From a virus: a DNA stretch of 32,791 nucleotides. The stretch lies in the IMG/VR virus record IMGVR_UViG_3300028920_002943, positions 1 to 32,791 of that record. The stretch is one strand, 5' to 3'. Shown here piece after piece: positions 2,401-28,037 of this stretch (its first letter is position 1; each line of letters begins with the position of its first letter). The translations under genes were made by a program, and so were the position numbers. The notes beneath the pieces are model-generated. The model did not search any database and was not told where the DNA came from. It saw only the letters and a list, made by a program, of their open reading frames with translations.

Positions 2401-3369
2401 TTATGTCAGCCCCTTGATCTCCAGCTCGCAGGCGGAATGCACCGGGCCTTTGAGCACCAGCCCGAAATCGGCCACAAATCCGAGGATTTTCAGGGCATCG
2501 TAATCGATGCCGGCATTGTTGGCCAAAAATACCGTGGCCCGTCCGCGCAGCCCGGTCAGAATGCTCTGCACCCGGTCATAATCCGCGTTGTCGATCGACA
2601 GATCGATGTCCATGTATTTTGCAGAGGCACCGACGGCCAGATAGACCCGGCCGTCCTCGTCCGTGCTTTTTTTGGAATAGTCGGCGGCCCCGGTTTTTGC
2701 GCCGAACTCCGTGGTGCCGATGTCAACGCTCTGGCCGAGCACAATGTAGCCGCAGGCCGGATACAGACCGGATACGGCATGCTCGATGGTAACTTCCAGA
2801 CTTCCGACGTGATAAATCGGAAACGAATGGATCACGTCATGATCGTAGGTGATTTCCGCGAAAAAATAGTCCCACCAGGTGCCCTCGACCTCGGCCGTCG
2901 GCAGGTCCACCTCGGTGGTATCGATCACGCCCTCGGTCGGATTCGAAAGCTCGAATGTGATCTTCGTGCCGGTACAGCCGAACACGGCCACGGTGTCGCA
3001 CCGGCCGGCGTCCAGGGTCATCACGATCTTTCCCGCATCGGTCGCTTCGGTGCCGTCGGCGGCCGTCTGGGTGTTAAGATAACTGTCGGCCCATTTCCAG
3101 CGGTTTGTGCCGCCGAGACATTTCCAGGCGCTGTCACTGCTGGTCGGGTCCGAGTTGTCCGGCGGATAGTTGCCGACATTTCCCGCCTGCAGGGACTCGT
3201 AGCGCATGACCGGGATCTGGGTGATCCCGTCGGACGCAGTGGACACCTTTACGATATCGCCGGCGGCATAAGTGGTGCCGCCCGCGTATTCGGCTGTGGG
3301 GGTATCGGCCGCGATATTGCTTTCTTCCAGTGTGCCGAACTCGATATCCTTAGGGATGATTACGTTCAT
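2401..3369 (-). CDS. Tail tip / distal tail protein with a carbohydrate-binding-like segment
   Basis: 322 residues from the ATG at 3369, which overlaps the tape measure stop as ATGA and has GGAGG 4 bases upstream. A longer frame reaching 3411 lacks its own ribosome site and lies inside the tape measure gene. After a short N-terminus (MNVIIPKDIEFGTLEESN), residues about 30-90 contain TTYAAGDIV, YESLQAGNVGNYP and GTNRWKWAD, spaced like the aromatic-rich CBM5/12-type segment found in phage tail proteins; it may bind cell-surface sugars. The rest is beta-rich with no enzyme motif. As the first gene after the tape measure it probably forms the tail tip. Exact family not recognised. Confidence 0.75.
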   Translation of the reverse strand: MNVIIPKDIEFGTLEESNIAADTPTAEYAGGTTYAAGDIVKVSTASDGITQIPVMRYESLQAGNVGNYPPDNSDPTSSDSAWKCLGGTNRWKWADSYLNTQTAADGTEATDAGKIVMTLDAGRCDTVAVFGCTGTKITFELSNPTEGVIDTTEVDLPTAEVEGTWWDYFFAEITYDHDVIHSFPIYHVGSLEVTIEHAVSGLYPACGYIVLGQSVDIGTTEFGAKTGAADYSKKSTDEDGRVYLAVGASAKYMDIDLSIDNADYDRVQSILTGLRGRATVFLANNAGIDYDALKILGFVADFGLVLKGPVHSACELEIKGLT

Positions 3370-6300
3370 GCGGCCTCCGTCCGGGCCTGAGGCAGCCCCT
3401 CCCGGTCCCATTTTTTGATTTTGTTCAGCACCCGGTTTACGGAGGCGGTCAATTCATCGAGCCGCCGATCCGATGTCCGGGTCCCGGCGTTCAGGGTCCG
3501 CACGGCATTGACCTGGTCTTCATTGAGAGTCAGCTCACGTCCGTGCAGCAGCTCCCAGTGGCCGGTGCTCGGTCCGTCGGACCAGCCGCCGTGCCGAAGG
3601 CCCATGGACTCATGCCCGGCAAAGCCGCCGCCCGATCCGCCCGGCCCGGAACCGGCGTGCGATGGACCGCCACCGCCGCCGTCACCACCGCCGTAATTGC
3701 CCCAAGCACTCGGGTCCTCAGTAGTGTAGCTGCCGCCCCAGGGGTTGGCCTCGCCGTAAATGCCGGTTCCGCTCCATCCTCCGCCCTGCCGGCCACGGCC
3801 GGAGGCGTATCCGCCGTATCCGCCGTATCCGTGAGAGCCCGAGGAAACCCCTGCGTTTTCGGTATTGGCACCCAGCTCGCCGCCTTCCCAGCTCTTGTAA
3901 GCCAAATGACCCTTTCGCCAGCCCAGGGCCTCCTCAAAGGCGTCCCGTAACTCTTCGTGGCTGCGCATATTCAGCGCATCACCCAGCAAATCCCCGATAA
4001 GCGACCCGAAGGGCCCCAGCAGAGAGGCGGCCGGACCCAGGGCCGCCGATCCGGCCAGCTGGGCCAGCATCGAACCGAGTGAGCCCCATTTGCCGGTGAT
4101 GCCTGTAGCCGCGTTGACGGCGCTGGGAATGCCGCCGAAGACCGCGGCCCGGGCGATATTCTGCAGACTGAACGCGCCGCCGACAAAATCCCCGAAATCG
4201 ATTTTTCCCGATGCATACAGCCCCAGCCCGGCTCCGGCCCGCTTGCCGAAAGCGGCTGCGGTGCCGCCCCAAAACCCGGCCGCCACATCGCCGAATCCAT
4301 TCCAGCCGCCGCCGGGTGTCCCGATGGCCAGGCCTTCCGCCTCGCTGCCGGTGGCCCGCCGAATCACGCCGGCCTCATCGGCCGGGATGATCATCTCGCC
4401 CTTATGCACCATGGCCAGATGATCCTGTTTCACATCGTATGCCCCGGTATCCCACCAGCCGAGCAGATCCGAGCCCAGCCAGTCAATCCCGCTGACCGCC
4501 GCATCCACCAGCTGCTGCGTGGCCATATCGCTGACCGTGTCGGTCACCGTGCGCAGCATCGAGTCAAACATGGAATCCCAGTAATCGGAAAAATCGTCCA
4601 GGTCTCCCTTGAGCCCGTCAAACAGGATGTCGGACATGGCGCCGGACGAGTTGTCCGCAAAATTGCGGACGATGTCATATCCGGTCTGGCCCCAGGTGGT
4701 CAGATCATCCCGGGAGTCCCGCCACCCGATCGCCACCGCTCCGAAAAAATCATCCGAGGCCAGCAGCTTTCTCTTTTCCAACTCTTCGTATTTTTCAACG
4801 AACCATTCTGCCACCAATGCCTGGTCATTGGTCACTTCGCAGTATTCGTCAGCCTGTTTTTCCAGCAAATCCAGCTGCAGATCAAAACTATCCTTGGCAT
4901 ACTCATCCAGATCCGAATACATGGATTGATAGGCCCGCAGCCGGTCGGCCGCCGCTTCCCGCGCGGCCCTGGTCGCCTCCTCATAGGCTTTTTCCTCGGC
5001 CTCATGCGCCTTGATGGCCTTATCCACCCCGGCCATCCGGGCTTTTTCGATGCGCTGCCAGGATGCGGTGAAGGTCTCCTCGACGGCCGCAGTCATGTCC
5101 ACGGCCGTTTTTTGTTCCGCCGCCGCCGCATCCCCGGCCGCTTTGGCCTGCTGTTCAGCTGCTGTCACGGCCGCATCGGCCACCGCCGAGTGGCTCACGC
5201 TGACCGCCTCGATCTTGGACCGCAGGTCCTTGATTTTTGCGCCCACCTTGTCATAGGTGGCGTTGGTGCTGGCGATATCCTCGATCACTGACTGCGTCAC
5301 ATCCGCAGACGAGGCCCGGAATGTCCCCAGGCCCTGTTCGATGCTGTCAAACGGGTTGACATCCAGCAGGCCGAGCTTCACCATTCCGTCATATATCAGG
5401 TCCAGGGGCACCAGCAGGGAGCGCACCCCGCCCATCAGCTCATCCAGCGACACGGCGATCGCGTGGACCGCCGCGGTCCCGACCAGCTTGATGCCCAGCC
5501 ATCCGTTATGGAAAAACCGCAGGGTTTCAATGGTGCCCCCGATCGCATCGGTCACCCACAGCACGCCCTCTTTGGCCAATGTGCCCATGGCCTCGTTGGA
5601 GATATCCAGTCCACCGATAAAGCGGTTGATCTCCCGGACCACCACCGTGGCCACCGGCAGCAGCCCCTCACCCAGCGCCGCCCTGGCGTCCTCGATCCGG
5701 GCGGTCATCAGCTTGGTCTGGTTGGCATACCCTTCCGAGGTGCGGGCCATGTCCCCGACGGCCGCGGTCGATGATCGCACGATCAGCGCGTAGGCCGCCT
5801 GGGCCTTGTCGCCGGCCGTCAGGGCATCGGCCGTCTCAGCCAGCCCCATGTTCAGCGCCTGCTGCTGCACCGTGGCGGCGGTGAGCACCACGCCGTATTT
5901 TTTCATCGGCTCATATTCACCGACCAGCGCCGACTGGATATTTTCCATCACCTGGGCTGTGCCCAGATTGTTGAACGAGCCCAGGTCCGCGGCCAGCTTG
6001 GTCGCTTCGAAGCTCATCTGCCCGGCGGCTTTGGCGTTCATGCCCATCGGCACCAGCAGGTCCTGCACCGAGGACAGAAATAATTTCGACTCCCGGGTCG
6101 ACATGGCATAGCCGTCGACCAGGGCTTTTGACCACTGGCCGGCCGCCGCGGTCTGGCCCGCAAAGACGGTGTCAAATTTGGATGCCGTCTCCTGCAGGTC
6201 AGAGGCTGCATTGATCGAGCCCATGGTGGCCGAGGTCAGCGAGGAGACCGCTCCTTTGACCGCCAGCACTCCGGCCACCGCCCCGCCCATTGCGATCAGG

Positions 6301-6461
6301 GCTGAGGTGGTGCCCTTCAGGCCGCTGGTCAGCTGCTTCGAGCTTTTTTCCACCTCGCCCAGGGATTTTTTCCCCTGGGCGCCGAACTGGTCCAGCACCC
6401 GCACGGCCCCGTCCGAGTCGATCTGCAGCTTGATGTCAATGGTGGATGCGTTGGCGGACAT
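3366..6461 (-). CDS. Tail tape measure protein
   Basis: 1031 residues, by far the longest gene, just after the tail chaperone genes. It sets tail length, is packed inside the tail tube and helps deliver DNA. The N-terminal region (about 1-280) matches the conserved tape-measure domain, including the stretch around NAASDLQETASKFDTVF. Hydrophobic segments occur near residues 50-70 and around 770-810. A coiled-coil region spans about 400-560. The motif HKGEMIIPADE near residue 687, usually close to the C-terminus in this family, is followed by another 340 residues including a Gly/Tyr/Ser-rich stretch (about 875-955) and a second related motif LLHGRELTLNEDQ. The start overlaps the preceding T frame as TAATG. 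Confidence 0.95.
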   Translation of the reverse strand: MSANASTIDIKLQIDSDGAVRVLDQFGAQGKKSLGEVEKSSKQLTSGLKGTTSALIAMGGAVAGVLAVKGAVSSLTSATMGSINAASDLQETASKFDTVFAGQTAAAGQWSKALVDGYAMSTRESKLFLSSVQDLLVPMGMNAKAAGQMSFEATKLAADLGSFNNLGTAQVMENIQSALVGEYEPMKKYGVVLTAATVQQQALNMGLAETADALTAGDKAQAAYALIVRSSTAAVGDMARTSEGYANQTKLMTARIEDARAALGEGLLPVATVVVREINRFIGGLDISNEAMGTLAKEGVLWVTDAIGGTIETLRFFHNGWLGIKLVGTAAVHAIAVSLDELMGGVRSLLVPLDLIYDGMVKLGLLDVNPFDSIEQGLGTFRASSADVTQSVIEDIASTNATYDKVGAKIKDLRSKIEAVSVSHSAVADAAVTAAEQQAKAAGDAAAAEQKTAVDMTAAVEETFTASWQRIEKARMAGVDKAIKAHEAEEKAYEEATRAAREAAADRLRAYQSMYSDLDEYAKDSFDLQLDLLEKQADEYCEVTNDQALVAEWFVEKYEELEKRKLLASDDFFGAVAIGWRDSRDDLTTWGQTGYDIVRNFADNSSGAMSDILFDGLKGDLDDFSDYWDSMFDSMLRTVTDTVSDMATQQLVDAAVSGIDWLGSDLLGWWDTGAYDVKQDHLAMVHKGEMIIPADEAGVIRRATGSEAEGLAIGTPGGGWNGFGDVAAGFWGGTAAAFGKRAGAGLGLYASGKIDFGDFVGGAFSLQNIARAAVFGGIPSAVNAATGITGKWGSLGSMLAQLAGSAALGPAASLLGPFGSLIGDLLGDALNMRSHEELRDAFEEALGWRKGHLAYKSWEGGELGANTENAGVSSGSHGYGGYGGYASGRGRQGGGWSGTGIYGEANPWGGSYTTEDPSAWGNYGGGDGGGGGPSHAGSGPGGSGGGFAGHESMGLRHGGWSDGPSTGHWELLHGRELTLNEDQVNAVRTLNAGTRTSDRRLDELTASVNRVLNKIKKWDREGLPQARTEAA

Positions 6462-6781
6462 TAGGTATCCTTATATTTGTAGATGGCCACCGGCCGGGGG
6501 GCCGGCAGGGCCGCATCGATGCGGCCCAGGTCGAGCCATTCGTCGATCGTAAGATCATCGGCCGCCAGCGGGTATCCGGCCCGTTTGAGGTCCAGCAGGC
6601 GCAGCAGCTTTATCGTGTATGGGGCCAGATCCGACCGGCGCTTTTTCGGGCAGTTCGCACACGCCCACTCCAGCCCCTCGGCCCCGACCTCTGCGATACA
6701 CCCGGCCTCTTCGGCCTCGGTGCACAGCCCCCGTTTCAGCGCGGCCAGATCCTCGGTCAGTCCTGGTCCGGGTCCGTATCC
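6461..6781 (-). CDS. Tail chaperone T-like frame, probably expressed as a -1 frameshift extension of gpG-like protein
   Basis: This frame stays open for 106 codons between a TGA at 6784-6782 and its TAA at 6463-6461, and contains no ATG, GTG or TTG until its last few codons. It reads as a good protein (LTEDLAALKRGL, a CANC pair, KLLRLLDLKRAGYPL, TIDEWLDLGRIDAAL). It lies in the -1 frame of the preceding 141-residue gene, overlaps that gene's end and abuts the tape measure start (TAATG). This is the arrangement of lambda G and T, where ribosomes shift frame to make a GT fusion that loads the tape measure. The shift must occur within 6781-6757. No classic slippery heptamer is seen, so a CTG start overlapping the G stop remains possible. 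Coordinates give the open frame, not a proven start. Confidence 0.72.
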   Translation of the reverse strand, partial: GYGPGPGLTEDLAALKRGLCTEAEEAGCIAEVGAEGLEWACANCPKKRRSDLAPYTIKLLRLLDLKRAGYPLAADDLTIDEWLDLGRIDAALPAPRPVAIYKYKDT

Positions 6782-7182
6782 TCAGGGGCCTCGTCAGCAG
6801 ATGTCGGCATCGCCATGACCGGCGCATCAAACACCCGCGCGGCCAGCAGCTCCAGCATATCCGCCGCATGGGTTTTGACGTGCTCTTTCCATGCGGGGTC
6901 TAAAAATTCGGATGCCGGGTCACTGGACAGCGGCACATATTTGCCGTCTTTCAGCACCTCAAAATCTCCCTCCCGAATCCCGGTCAGAATCTTATGTCCG
7001 TATTTGATGCGGGTTTCGACAGTGCGGGTTTGCACCCGCCCGTTCTCGCGCCGGACAGAGTCATTCTGGTAGCCGATCCGCTCTTTGGTGGTCGGCATCC
7101 GGTAAAAAAGTTTAATATCCGTCCCGGACAGGTTGTCCCGGATTGTCAGTTCATTTTGTTCATCACTCAATCGTCTGGCCAT
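6757..7182 (-). CDS. Tail assembly chaperone, lambda gpG-like
   Basis: 141 residues, the same size as lambda gpG, with AGGAGG before the ATG. The protein is charged and soluble (MARRLSDEQNELTIRDN at the start) and ends in an acidic tail DEAPEDTDPDQD, where the frameshift into the T frame would occur. It lies between the tail tube gene and the tape measure, as chaperones do in siphoviruses. It would bind the tape measure and guide tube polymerisation, but not remain in the virion. No enzymatic motif. Assignment rests on position, size and the overlapping -1 frame. Confidence 0.8.
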   Translation of the reverse strand: MARRLSDEQNELTIRDNLSGTDIKLFYRMPTTKERIGYQNDSVRRENGRVQTRTVETRIKYGHKILTGIREGDFEVLKDGKYVPLSSDPASEFLDPAWKEHVKTHAADMLELLAARVFDAPVMAMPTSADEAPEDTDPDQD

Positions 7183-7208
7183 CTGTCATCCTCCTGTTAT
7201 CTGTTTTG

Positions 7209-7239
7209 CCATCAGCCAATAGCCATCAGCCATCAGCTT
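7209..7239 (-). repeat. Heptanucleotide tandem repeat, GGCTGAT type
   Basis: On the minus strand this junction reads as degenerate 7-base units AGCTGAT, GGCTGAT, GGCTATT, GGCTGAT. It fills the gap between the stop of the tail tube gene (7243) and the ribosome site of the gpG-like gene. The same unit type recurs at 12684 and 22166. Confidence 0.8.
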
Positions 7240-7242
7240 TGT

Positions 7243-8520
7243 TTACGCCGCGTAGGCGCTCTGCAGGTTCTTCACTTTCGCGATCACCGATCCGTAGGTC
7301 GCATCCTCGAGCACCTGAAGGTCCCCGGCCTCGGCCACCACCTTGCCGTCCACCGATACCGGCGCTTTCAATACCCCCAGTTTCGGAAACACGATATCCA
7401 CCTGGTACTTGTGCGGATCATCGTACACCGCACCTTCCACCAGGATTCGCAGCCCGAACGTGTCGTTGGCCTCGATGTGCTGCTGCAGGATGCAGTCGCG
7501 CATCTCCCGGTTCAGGGATGCGGTCTGGGTCCGGCCGGATCTGAAATACCGGCCCGCATAGTCATCGCCCGCCCCCGGCACAAAGGATATCGTGCCGTTG
7601 TTGTTGAAGCTCCAGCCGATGGATTTCAGCTCGGCGGCCAGCGCCCGCCCGCCGGTAAACTCGGAACCGTTCCACGCCCCGCCCAGGGTCAGCGTCATCT
7701 GCGCCACCCGCAGCGGGGTCTCGGCGATCCGGGCCGGGAAGGTGCACCAGGCCGCCTCGGCCGGCACATACAGCACCTTGTAGTTTACGGCGACAGCGCC
7801 CTCGCCGGGCGCGGTGATCGTGATCACGGCCGGGCTGGCATCCGACACGGCCGAGCAGTCCACATCGGTCCACACGCCCTCGGAAAGCTCCGCCCGGATG
7901 CGCTGCACGTTATCCAGCCGCGTGGCCGCCGTGGCCCCCTGCACGCCGTTGGCCGCCAGGGTCAGCTCCGTGGCCGTCGGCAGGGCCGATACGGTCTCCT
8001 CGATCACCGAATCGGTATATTTGCCGGTGCCCTTGATCGTCGCGGCCAGCTTCACCCAGTCATCCGCCGCAAACGTCGCCTCGAACGCATCCACGAACAT
8101 CGAGGCAAACCGCCGCTTTAAAATCACATCCCCGAAGCGCTCAGCCGCCGTAAATGACGGGATCGACCGCGATCCGTCGCAGTCGCCGGCTATCGGGGTG
8201 AGGGTGTGCTCGTACCCCGTCCCGGCCGCCGCCGTTGAAATCGCGCCCAGCCCATAGGCCAGGACAAAGGCGAAATGCTGGGGCTGGGCCTTGTTGAAGT
8301 TGAACGTGGTCCCGGCCGTTGCTCCCAGATGGTAGATCGTATCCGGCTCTTCCAGCCCGTGGGCTTCGTCGGCGTTGGTCTCCCGGCGCGGATCCAGATT
8401 GATCACATCGGACAGGGCGCACAGCATCGTGGTATCCAGCGTCTGTTCGGTGTTGATGGCCGTTTCTGCGGCACCTGCCGATACGGCAATCAGGTTATGG
8501 GTGGCTCTAAAGGATCTCAT
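7243..8520 (-). CDS. Major tail tube protein (siphovirus type)
   Basis: 425 residues, GAGGAG site before the ATG, start overlapping the end of the preceding small gene. The N-terminal part (about 1-180, including GTTFNFNKAQPQHFAF and YEHTLTPI) and C-terminal part (about 290-425) look like one tail-tube fold. Residues about 185-290 have an alternating hydrophobic pattern that suggests an inserted beta-rich, Ig-like surface domain, making the protein longer than most tube subunits. Position before the G/T chaperones and tape measure supports the call. No sheath gene is next to it, consistent with a non-contractile tail. Confidence 0.8.
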   Translation of the reverse strand: MRSFRATHNLIAVSAGAAETAINTEQTLDTTMLCALSDVINLDPRRETNADEAHGLEEPDTIYHLGATAGTTFNFNKAQPQHFAFVLAYGLGAISTAAAGTGYEHTLTPIAGDCDGSRSIPSFTAAERFGDVILKRRFASMFVDAFEATFAADDWVKLAATIKGTGKYTDSVIEETVSALPTATELTLAANGVQGATAATRLDNVQRIRAELSEGVWTDVDCSAVSDASPAVITITAPGEGAVAVNYKVLYVPAEAAWCTFPARIAETPLRVAQMTLTLGGAWNGSEFTGGRALAAELKSIGWSFNNNGTISFVPGAGDDYAGRYFRSGRTQTASLNREMRDCILQQHIEANDTFGLRILVEGAVYDDPHKYQVDIVFPKLGVLKAPVSVDGKVVAEAGDLQVLEDATYGSVIAKVKNLQSAYAA

Positions 8521-22165: not shown

Positions 22166-22205
22166 CATCAGCCTCCATCTGCCTCCAGCCATCAGCCATC
22201 AGCTA
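22166..22205 (-). repeat. Heptanucleotide tandem repeat, GGCTGAT type
   Basis: Minus-strand units AGCTGAT, GGCTGAT, GGCTGGA, GGCAGAT, GGAGGCT, GATG. It starts at the TAG stop of gemA (22203) and includes the GGAGG ribosome site of the next gene. Confidence 0.8.
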
Positions 22206-25830: not shown

Positions 25831-25885
25831 TTACCGTCTACTGCTTACTTCCTACTGCTTACTGCTTACTTCCTACTTCCTACGG
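25831..25885 (-). repeat. Heptanucleotide tandem repeat, AAGTAAG/CAGTAGG type
   Basis: The longest array: minus-strand units CCGTAGG, AAGTAGG, AAGTAAG, CAGTAAG, CAGTAGG, AAGTAAG, CAGTAGA, CGGTAAA. The first units encode the last residues and TAA stop of the transposase (25866); the array ends just before the MuB ribosome site. Every unit has TAG or TAA, so all three frames are closed. Confidence 0.9.
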
Positions 25886-28037
25886 CTTCCCCCGTCTCCA
25901 GATACCGCTCATACGCGGCCATCCACGTCCGGTCGGCCGTCGCCACGGGGCGTCCGGCCTCCACATCCTCGAGCAGGTACTCATATTTTTCATGCTCGGT
26001 GGCCGGCAGCGGCCGCGCTTTTTCATCGGCCAGGCGGATCACCTCGGCCGCCCGCGCGTCCTGATCGTCCGTGATCCCGATCGGATCGGTACCGGCACCG
26101 GCCGCGTCCATGGCTGCCACGGCTTTGGCCGCTTCGTCCATGGCATCGGTGGTGTAATCGACGCTCGGTTTCGGCATTTCGGTCACGTTGGAAAGCTTCC
26201 GCTTGTGATGGGCCAGAATTTCGGCGCCGATGGTGCGCGTCTGCATCTCGGCCGCCTGTTTTTTCAGCCGCTTTCGGCCTTCGGTATACACCTGTGTCTG
26301 CTTGCGTTTGGCCTTGGCCGCCAGCTCGGCCCGGTCGATGCCCTTCCTCTCCGGATCCACGGCCCGGCACAGAAACTCGCCGCTCGACAGGTAGCAGTAC
26401 ACCACCCCGAAATCGGTCGGGTCGCAGAACACCTGCACGGTGTCCGCTTCGTGGCCGATCATGTCCATGGAATAGTAACAGCCGCGGTCCACCTGGACGC
26501 CTTCCTTGCCGATGATGCGCCGGCCGCCGTCCCCGGGCGCGGCATACAGCAGCACGTCCAGCGCCCGTTCGTCCGTGATCCGCCGGACCGGCGCCGTCCA
26601 TTCGCGCACCATCTGCATCGGGGTCTTGCCGCCCAGTCCCCTGTGCCCCTGGTGATGGTACATGGCCTCGCACCAGTCGTCGCAGATCTGCTGGAACTCG
26701 GCCGCCGTCATCCGGATCTCGATCGGGTCCTGCCCCTGCTTGAGCAGCCGTTGGGCAAAGGTCCGGCGGGCCTCGATGGCCTTGCGATCGTTGATGTTGT
26801 GGCCCACGTAGCCGGGCAGCAGCTCGCAGAGGTCATGGGCGAACGTGCGGAAAAACCGTTCGATATGCGGCTTTTGTTCCGGTGAAAACGGTGTGCACAG
26901 CCGCTGTTCGATCTCCAGTGACGTAAACACCCGCACCAGGTGCCGGGAGACGTAATCCGAACCGTTGTCGGTCTTGACGGTCTCGGGCACGCCCCAGTCC
27001 AGCAGCGCCCGGCGCGTCAGGCCCGCCACCGCCTCGGCCCTGGCCGTGGGCGATATCAGCATTTTGGCGCGCCGCGTATAGAGGTCGATCACCCCGGTGA
27101 TGCAGTGCCGGCCGTCGACCAGCATCACGTCCGTGGGCGTGCCGTCAAACTCCCACATCTGGTTGAGGCGCTCGATCTGCGCGGAGGCGCTGCCCACCGC
27201 GAGCATCGCCCGGTTTTTCCATTCATCCGGATTTTTGATAAACAGCAGCAGCCCCTGGTGCTCGGCTTTCCATTTGGCCACATACCGCCGGATAGATGAC
27301 GGATGCGGGATCGTCTGCCCGTCGTAGCGGGCTTCAAGCCCCTTTCGGATGTGCGGGATGGACGCATGCGGAAAATCGGTCAGCATCGCCTGGATAAAGG
27401 CCTGCATGTGCTCGGGGATGCTGCAGGCGGTGTTGACCGTATATCTGGATGCCAGGCCCGCCATGCCGAACGCGTCAAAGGCCTCCTGCCACCGGCGCAT
27501 TGTAGACCAGGAAAGGCTGGGCCGCCCCCCGCGGGATGCCACAAGCCCGATCACCTCGGCAGTCAGCGGTATCGCCCCCCCGACCAGCTCCCGGCAGAAG
27601 ACCTCCGTGCCCCGCTTGAGCGGCAGGCCGGTCGCCTTCAAAAAACCGTCCCTGGCCTGCAGGATCTCAAACCGTGCCTCCGCCTCTCGTTTTCGGGCCT
27701 CAGGCAGGGCCGCATAATCCTTCAGGCCCTGCTCCTTGGCCCGCTGCCGGGCCTCGATGGCGGTCAGTTTTTCATCCGCCAGGGCCTCGCCCCGCAGCTG
27801 TCCGGCCTCGGCAGAGGCCCCCGGTGCGGCCGCCATCTTTCCGGCCTCAGACAATTTCAACGCCAGCTCGCCCCGGACCGCTCTCGGCAGCAGGGACGTA
27901 ACGAATACGGCTTTACGCCCGCCGCGGCACGCCGTCGATATCCGGCCCCATCCTTCATCTGTCGCCCGCTGCTGCACGGCCCGGCGTGAGATGCCGAGCG
28001 TTTGGCTGATCTGATCCGCTGTCCATTCCGCTTGCAT
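25866..28037 (-). CDS. A: DDE transposase, MuA-like
   Basis: 723 residues, AGGAGG 7 bases before the ATG. Residues 1-50 form the Mu-type winged helix (AEWTADQISQTLGISRRAVQ). The catalytic core has D298 in WEFDGTPTD, D357 in VKTDNGSDY and E393 in KPHIERFF, giving exact DD35E spacing. A beta-barrel domain and charged C-terminus (KRKQTQVYTEGRKRLKKQ region) follow, the latter fitting MuB contact. It integrates and replicates the phage by transposition. Confidence 0.96.
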   Translation of the reverse strand: MQAEWTADQISQTLGISRRAVQQRATDEGWGRISTACRGGRKAVFVTSLLPRAVRGELALKLSEAGKMAAAPGASAEAGQLRGEALADEKLTAIEARQRAKEQGLKDYAALPEARKREAEARFEILQARDGFLKATGLPLKRGTEVFCRELVGGAIPLTAEVIGLVASRGGRPSLSWSTMRRWQEAFDAFGMAGLASRYTVNTACSIPEHMQAFIQAMLTDFPHASIPHIRKGLEARYDGQTIPHPSSIRRYVAKWKAEHQGLLLFIKNPDEWKNRAMLAVGSASAQIERLNQMWEFDGTPTDVMLVDGRHCITGVIDLYTRRAKMLISPTARAEAVAGLTRRALLDWGVPETVKTDNGSDYVSRHLVRVFTSLEIEQRLCTPFSPEQKPHIERFFRTFAHDLCELLPGYVGHNINDRKAIEARRTFAQRLLKQGQDPIEIRMTAAEFQQICDDWCEAMYHHQGHRGLGGKTPMQMVREWTAPVRRITDERALDVLLYAAPGDGGRRIIGKEGVQVDRGCYYSMDMIGHEADTVQVFCDPTDFGVVYCYLSSGEFLCRAVDPERKGIDRAELAAKAKRKQTQVYTEGRKRLKKQAAEMQTRTIGAEILAHHKRKLSNVTEMPKPSVDYTTDAMDEAAKAVAAMDAAGAGTDPIGITDDQDARAAEVIRLADEKARPLPATEHEKYEYLLEDVEAGRPVATADRTWMAAYERYLETGEAVGSRK

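Follow-up and report, generated by a model that had tools for sequence, protein, structure and literature searches.

A candidate −1 frameshift site lacking a slippery heptamer in the putative tail chaperone genes of a Mu-like phage and nine relatives

A Z_ZZN tetranucleotide is needed for nearly all −1 frameshifts (PMC5009743). Annotation tools search for slippery heptamers. G_GA is known as the X_XX element of several natural viral −1 sites (PMC5009743). In the tail chaperones of actinophages, re-pairing of GAA to GGA through a G:U pair has been proposed for the site GGGGGAA, and CCCGGAA has been discussed as a G:U mimic (PMC10885494). The same study, which introduced PRFect, lists 22 annotated phage genomes whose tail-chaperone overlap contains none of the known motifs at any position (PMC10885494).

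Here we compare these systems with a G/T gene pair from a Mu-like phage. Judged from comparative sequence analysis, G and T probably form a tail chaperone pair of the lambda type in which a −1 shift would take place at CAG_GAC_UGA, both in this phage and in nine of its relatives; we assign this reading a probability of roughly two in three.

Gene neighborhood and the G/T overlap

The window (the whole stretch of DNA analyzed, a viral record of 32,791 bases) encodes a Mu-type transposase (25866–28037), a terminase, a portal, a major head protein, a neck protein and a tape measure protein, and also matches a minor head protein and a DNA pilot protein. The Mu-type transposase together with this head and tail gene set identifies the window as a Mu-like transposable phage. 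G and T lie between a tail gene and the tape measure gene, the position of G and T in lambda:

7243–8520, minus strand: 425-residue tail gene preceding G (match to phrog_290, minor tail protein, E 2e-7)
7182–6757, minus strand: G, tail-assembly-chaperone-like open reading frame, 141 codons, ATG to TGA
6784–6782, minus strand: TGA in the −1 frame, the upstream limit of a shift (reading-frame analysis)
6781–6461, minus strand: T frame of 106 codons followed by TAA, −1 to G (open 6781–6464, stop 6463–6461)
6464–6760, minus strand: conserved T domain (LTEDLAALKRGLC...), 99 codons (alignment A4)
3366–6461, minus strand: 1031-residue tape measure protein (match to phrog_1535, tail length tape measure, E 9e-17)

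The product of the first of these genes is a candidate tail tube protein, a role suggested by its position. A tandem GGCTGATGGC-like repeat occupies 7205–7245, between this gene and G, and a stretch resembling it also occurs at 22175–22204.

The first-pass annotation described T as a 106-codon frame, −1 to G, without a usable start, and this description is accurate: within the T frame, a GTG at 6490, close to the end of T, is the sole ATG, GTG or TTG, and the T stop is overlapped by the ATG of the tape measure gene (TAATG, 6461). Equally correct was its account of a 25-base overlap, running from the −1-frame TGA to the G stop and devoid of a standard heptamer, the genes being on the minus strand. 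The overlap, GGATACGGACCCGGACCAGGACTGA, reads GAT ACG GAC CCG GAC CAG GAC TGA in the codons of G, includes GGACCCGGACCAGGAC at 6775–6760, and contains no strict in-frame X_XXY_YYZ. The C-terminal tail of G is acidic and ends in DPDQD.

The AlphaFold2 models of G and T have pLDDT values of 85 and 91, respectively. In a Foldseek comparison of G with BFVD, the best matches include several annotated tail assembly chaperones, with probabilities of up to 1.00, E values of about 0.01 and TM scores of 0.48 or less. A structure search of the PDB with G gave no match, no known fold matching the confident T model was found, and Pfam, PHROGs and the PDB yielded no family, useful PHROG or solved fold for either protein. 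T has four well-conserved cysteines, two of them spaced and two in a following CxxC, which could bind zinc.

Frame relation and shift-site motifs across the family

Searched alone, G had no match among viral contigs and T had none among genome contigs or GenBank phages; profile searches were needed beyond the single-sequence searches. The first search with T returned 7 viral contigs, and overall more than 100 distinct loci were collected, with T domains from many viral contigs and a number of bacterial genomes showing roughly 30–60% identity (T and profile searches). G and T were located by profile in every locus with their relative frame left unassumed, and in every one of the 127 distinct loci T proved to be −1 to G. 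Homology among the T domains starts with the codon overlapping the stop of G (alignment A4). Because T is conserved across more than 100 loci, always −1 to G, the overlap is more than chance, and T is a real, conserved, folded domain.

A standard slippery heptamer stands in frame within the overlap in 87 of the 127 loci, usually abutting the G stop. The heptamers found are GGGAAAG (the heptamer of lambda), AAAAAAC (carried, for example, by L024 and L025), GGGAAAC, CCCAAAC, AAACCCT and CCCTTTG/A; the other 40 loci, the window included, have none. The programmed G-to-T frameshift suggested by the first-pass annotation gains support from the constant −1 relation, from the 87 heptamers at the same place and from the lack of a T start codon in the close relatives of the window. 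On these grounds, programmed −1 frameshifting from G to T has good support in the family as a whole, and it is likely to operate in this phage. As a separate observation, G in L185 and L222 ends in GGG GAA followed by the stop, which yields the GGGGGAA annotated in the tail chaperones of actinophages.

The first-pass annotation had named a homolog in which T has its own ATG and a good ribosome-binding site as evidence that would count against a shift. Such T genes do exist, although only elsewhere in the family. In L006, G and T meet in an ATGA overlap that gives T its own start. In a set of remote prophage relatives from Desulfobacterota genomes (L222–L226 and L229–L232), T has an ATG or GTG start of its own within the terminal part of G, preceded by a strong Shine–Dalgarno sequence (−8 to −10 kcal/mol), and seems to have turned into a protein whose translation is initiated separately. 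The fusion is therefore not obligatory in the wider family.

The last nine bases of the overlap in the window form the proposed shift site:

6757–6765, minus strand: CAG_GAC_TGA, an exact 9-mer that 10 distinct loci share in this position

This nonamer, CAGGACTGA, is shared by the window, L031, L036, L067, L104, L106, L123, L134, L166 and L193, and is the most common ending among the 40 loci without a heptamer. In the 25-base overlap, whose repeated GGAC units were pointed out by the first-pass annotation, it is these last nine bases that are found again in other loci; the GGAC repeat itself is not. Among near-family loci, CAG_GAC_TGA ends G in 10 of 93, versus none of the 540 ends of other long open reading frames in these loci (Fisher p 3e-9); the shorter G_GAC_TGA ends G in 14 of 93 versus 1 of 540, its variants being CGG GAC TGA (L099), CCG GAC TGA (L013 and L041) and AAG GAC TGA (L093). 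From codon use in the G tail, the chance frequency of this ending is about 7e-4, so that ten occurrences among the 29 non-canonical near-family sites have a probability of about 3e-25 if the loci are independent, and three or more a probability of 1e-6.

The ten loci are diverged, with T identities of 43–76%. Constraining them to a single clade costs 246 log-likelihood units (AU p 4.8e-6), and the tree calls for at least eight motif changes, three of them forced by starred branches, many branches being weakly supported. Several of the nonamer loci adjoin AAAAAAC relatives on the tree. Since the ten do not form one clade and have AAAAAAC neighbors, the motif trades places with standard heptamers, as would be expected of a functional equivalent.

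Near-family G genes that end in Asp use GAC in 14 of 14 cases and never GAT, and stop at TGA in 14 of 14 and never at TAA or TAG. The family background of GAC to GAT is 464:380, and the G stops of canonical members are a mixture of TAA, TGA and TAG. The exclusive use of GAC and TGA at Asp-ending G genes indicates that constraint acts on the nucleotides.

In L104 and L193 the overlap comprises only 10 bases, which confines any shift there to C_CAG_GAC_TGA. The nonamer itself offers only G_GAC and no Z_ZZN; the window has a C_CCG upstream, and Z_ZZN is absent from the whole overlap of L031, L036 and L104. The suggestion in the first-pass annotation that the site may be of a new slippery type is thereby strengthened, ten diverged loci carrying CAG_GAC_TGA, which has no Z_ZZN of its own. 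A search for the motif beyond the G/T family (GACCAGGACTGACC) covered 100 distinct sites, of which the window and L167, a locus on the same contig as L031, were alone in being G/T-like; there is thus no sign yet of other families using it. The string CAGGACUGA was seen in none of the frameshift papers among the results listed for the literature search. As far as our searches show, CAG_GAC_TGA is an undescribed −1 site in the literature covered, most subscription papers lying outside that scope.

L063, L097, L101, L103, L109, L121, L124, L148 and L040 make up another group without a canonical heptamer, in which G_GAC_CCT directly precedes the stop of G or lies close to it. This site resembles the known G_GAU_UUU type, with C replacing U, and is intermediate in character.

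Proposed slip and its alternatives

We propose that the majority of ribosomes would terminate at the TGA of G to yield G, and that a minority would slip back by one base and read on into T to yield a GT fusion. A slip at GAC_TGA predicts a fusion of 141 + 99 = 240 residues. In the proposed event, peptidyl-tRNA-Asp on GAC (6762–6760) would re-pair with GGA (6763–6761) while UGA awaits release factor 2. The new pairing would comprise G–C at position 1, G:U at position 2 and a mismatch at position 3; the same third-position mismatch occurs in the canonical AAAAAAC relatives when tRNA-Asn moves from AAC to AAA. The −1 A-site codon would then be CUG, read by tRNA-Leu in competition with the release factor. 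UGA is read by release factor 2 alone, and CUA is usually a rare leucine codon; a UAA or UAG stop would make the −1 codon CUA, which could explain the exclusive use of TGA. The slip leaves the conservation of CAG unexplained, as re-pairing of tRNA-Gln from CAG to CCA is poor.

Possible stimulatory elements were sought around the site. Folding energies just after the stop (+3 and +6), over the first 40 bases, fall below those of shuffled sequences, with mean z scores of −0.81 for canonical loci and −1.01 for the CAGGACTGA loci, and windows further from the stop give z near zero; across the family this hairpin signal is modest, and base composition accounts for part of it. A strong hairpin follows the site immediately in L134. 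No clear hairpin was found close to the site in the window itself, where stretches of 30–50 bases near the stop give z of +0.4 to +1.3, and Shine–Dalgarno pairing upstream, as a possible stimulator, is not stronger in the CAGGACTGA loci than in the canonical relatives.

Two further heptamers within the overlap of the window bear on where the shift would occur in this phage:

6766–6772, minus strand: C_CCG_GAC, an alternative or additional slip site that needs G:U re-pairing (to CCC and GGA)
6769–6775, minus strand: G_GAC_CCG, a G_GA-type heptamer that could be a third site

A tandem slip with G:U pairing at C_CCG_GAC, or a slip at G_GAC_CCG, could serve this phage and leave CAG_GAC_TGA incidental here, an alternative that we regard as unlikely. 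C_CCG_GAC is in frame inside the overlap (6772–6766) and holds the Z_ZZN tetranucleotide C_CCG, although it counts as slippery only if G:U pairing is admitted, as in the mimic CCCGGAA (PMC10885494). CCCGGAC also occurs in L041, which ends GAC CCG GAC TGA with an overlap of 10 bases, and G_GAC_CCT recurs in other relatives. However, CCCGGAC is present in none of the other nine CAGGACTGA loci and therefore cannot explain the motif; what is conserved, in 10 of 10, is the last nine bases of the overlap.

In kind, the main rival to the shift at CAG_GAC_UGA is coupled restart, given that the remote relatives start T at ATG or GTG. Ribosomes terminating at TGA could restart at the overlapping CTG (CTGA), producing T as a separate protein without a shift; we consider this improbable for the window and its nine counterparts. 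The geometry of CTGA is the same as that of ATGA overlaps, as seen in L006, a separate T start is found in most of the remote relatives (L222–L232), and the C before TGA, which creates the CTG, is present in 14 of 14 Asp-ending sites. At the T of the window, no ATG, GTG or TTG with a Shine–Dalgarno sequence 4–10 bases upstream was found, leaving only this CTG. Nevertheless, Shine–Dalgarno pairing before the CTG is weak (mean −3.1 kcal/mol over the ten loci and −3.7 in the window), weaker than in canonical AAAAAAC relatives (−4.8), at real G starts (−7.8) or at the remote T starts cited above, and no ribosome-binding site is present there. Moreover, GAA, GAG or GAT before TGA would provide ATG, GTG or TTG, and near-family G genes with Glu or Asp ahead of TGA leave these unused, although a selected restart should favor NNA-UGA, the pattern produced by overlapping starts (PMC7246954). 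Finally, L070, the sister of L067, has CAG GAG TAA, in which the corresponding codon is GTA, not a start.

A short bypass is far less probable still. Here, peptidyl-tRNA-Asp would leave GAC and land on an invariant Asp codon (GAY) of T at least 8 bases downstream, an arrangement that would combine an Asp take-off codon followed by a stop with an invariant in-frame Asp in T, in keeping with the rule for take-off and landing codons in T4 gene 60. Yet that Asp is equally conserved in canonical members, which do not need a landing site, and the bypass offers no reason for the G before GAC (14 of 14); in 10 of 10 loci the codons that the ribosome would skip still encode an acidic residue ahead of the Asp, as expected if they are translated. 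Decay or sequence error, in which a heptamer was lost or misassembled and T is not made, would fit the lack of a strict heptamer in the window but is already contradicted by nine other independent assemblies that share the nonamer and have intact, conserved T frames.

Returning to the slip at CAG_GAC_UGA, we suggest, tentatively and at somewhat less than even odds, that it represents a distinct bacterial −1 "shifty stop": a single tRNA-Asp slip on G_GAC with UGA in the A site, acting without a heptamer or Z_ZZN, which may have repeatedly arisen or been exchanged with heptamers in one phage family and whose efficiency would depend on release factor 2.

Comparison with known systems

As in lambda G/GT, the genes form an overlapping pair just before the tape measure gene, T lies in the −1 frame without a start of its own, and most relatives collected here carry GGGAAAG, AAAAAAC, GGGAAAC or CCCAAAC, kinds of site that are also used for g–t in haloarchaeal viruses (PMC5009743); unlike lambda, the window and nine relatives have CAG_GAC_TGA in place of the heptamer. 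The first-pass annotation also pointed to phage Mu. The present phage resembles Mu in being transposable and in having a probable tail-gene shift of unusual kind; the comparison is only a loose one because Mu shifts by −2 into the +1 frame (PMC5009743), whereas T here is −1 in 127 of 127 loci.

The actinophage sites GGGGGAA and CCCGGAA, treated in the PRFect study (PMC10885494), share with the present locus the re-pairing of GAN to GGA with G:U at position 2, and the C_CCG_GAC of the window is nearly CCCGGAA. Those sites, however, keep three identical P-site bases and slip on two sense codons, whereas CAG_GAC_TGA has only G_GA and places a stop codon in the A site. Similarly, the G_GAU_UUU sites of eukaryotic viruses such as pea enation mosaic virus involve tRNA-Asp moving from GAY to GGA (PMC5009743), but their A-site UUU re-pairs perfectly, whereas the A site here is UGA.

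The +1 shift of prfB at CUU_UGA runs in the opposite direction and has a Shine–Dalgarno sequence close upstream, whereas the shift proposed here is −1 and no such element is conserved; both would nonetheless involve slippage of a peptidyl-tRNA in competition with release factor 2 at UGA. A recurrent, nucleotide-exact non-slippery site that swaps with heptamers would widen the rules of −1 frameshifting, would imply that competition with release factors can matter in −1 shifts, and might account for some of the 22 tail-chaperone cases in which no motif has been recognized.
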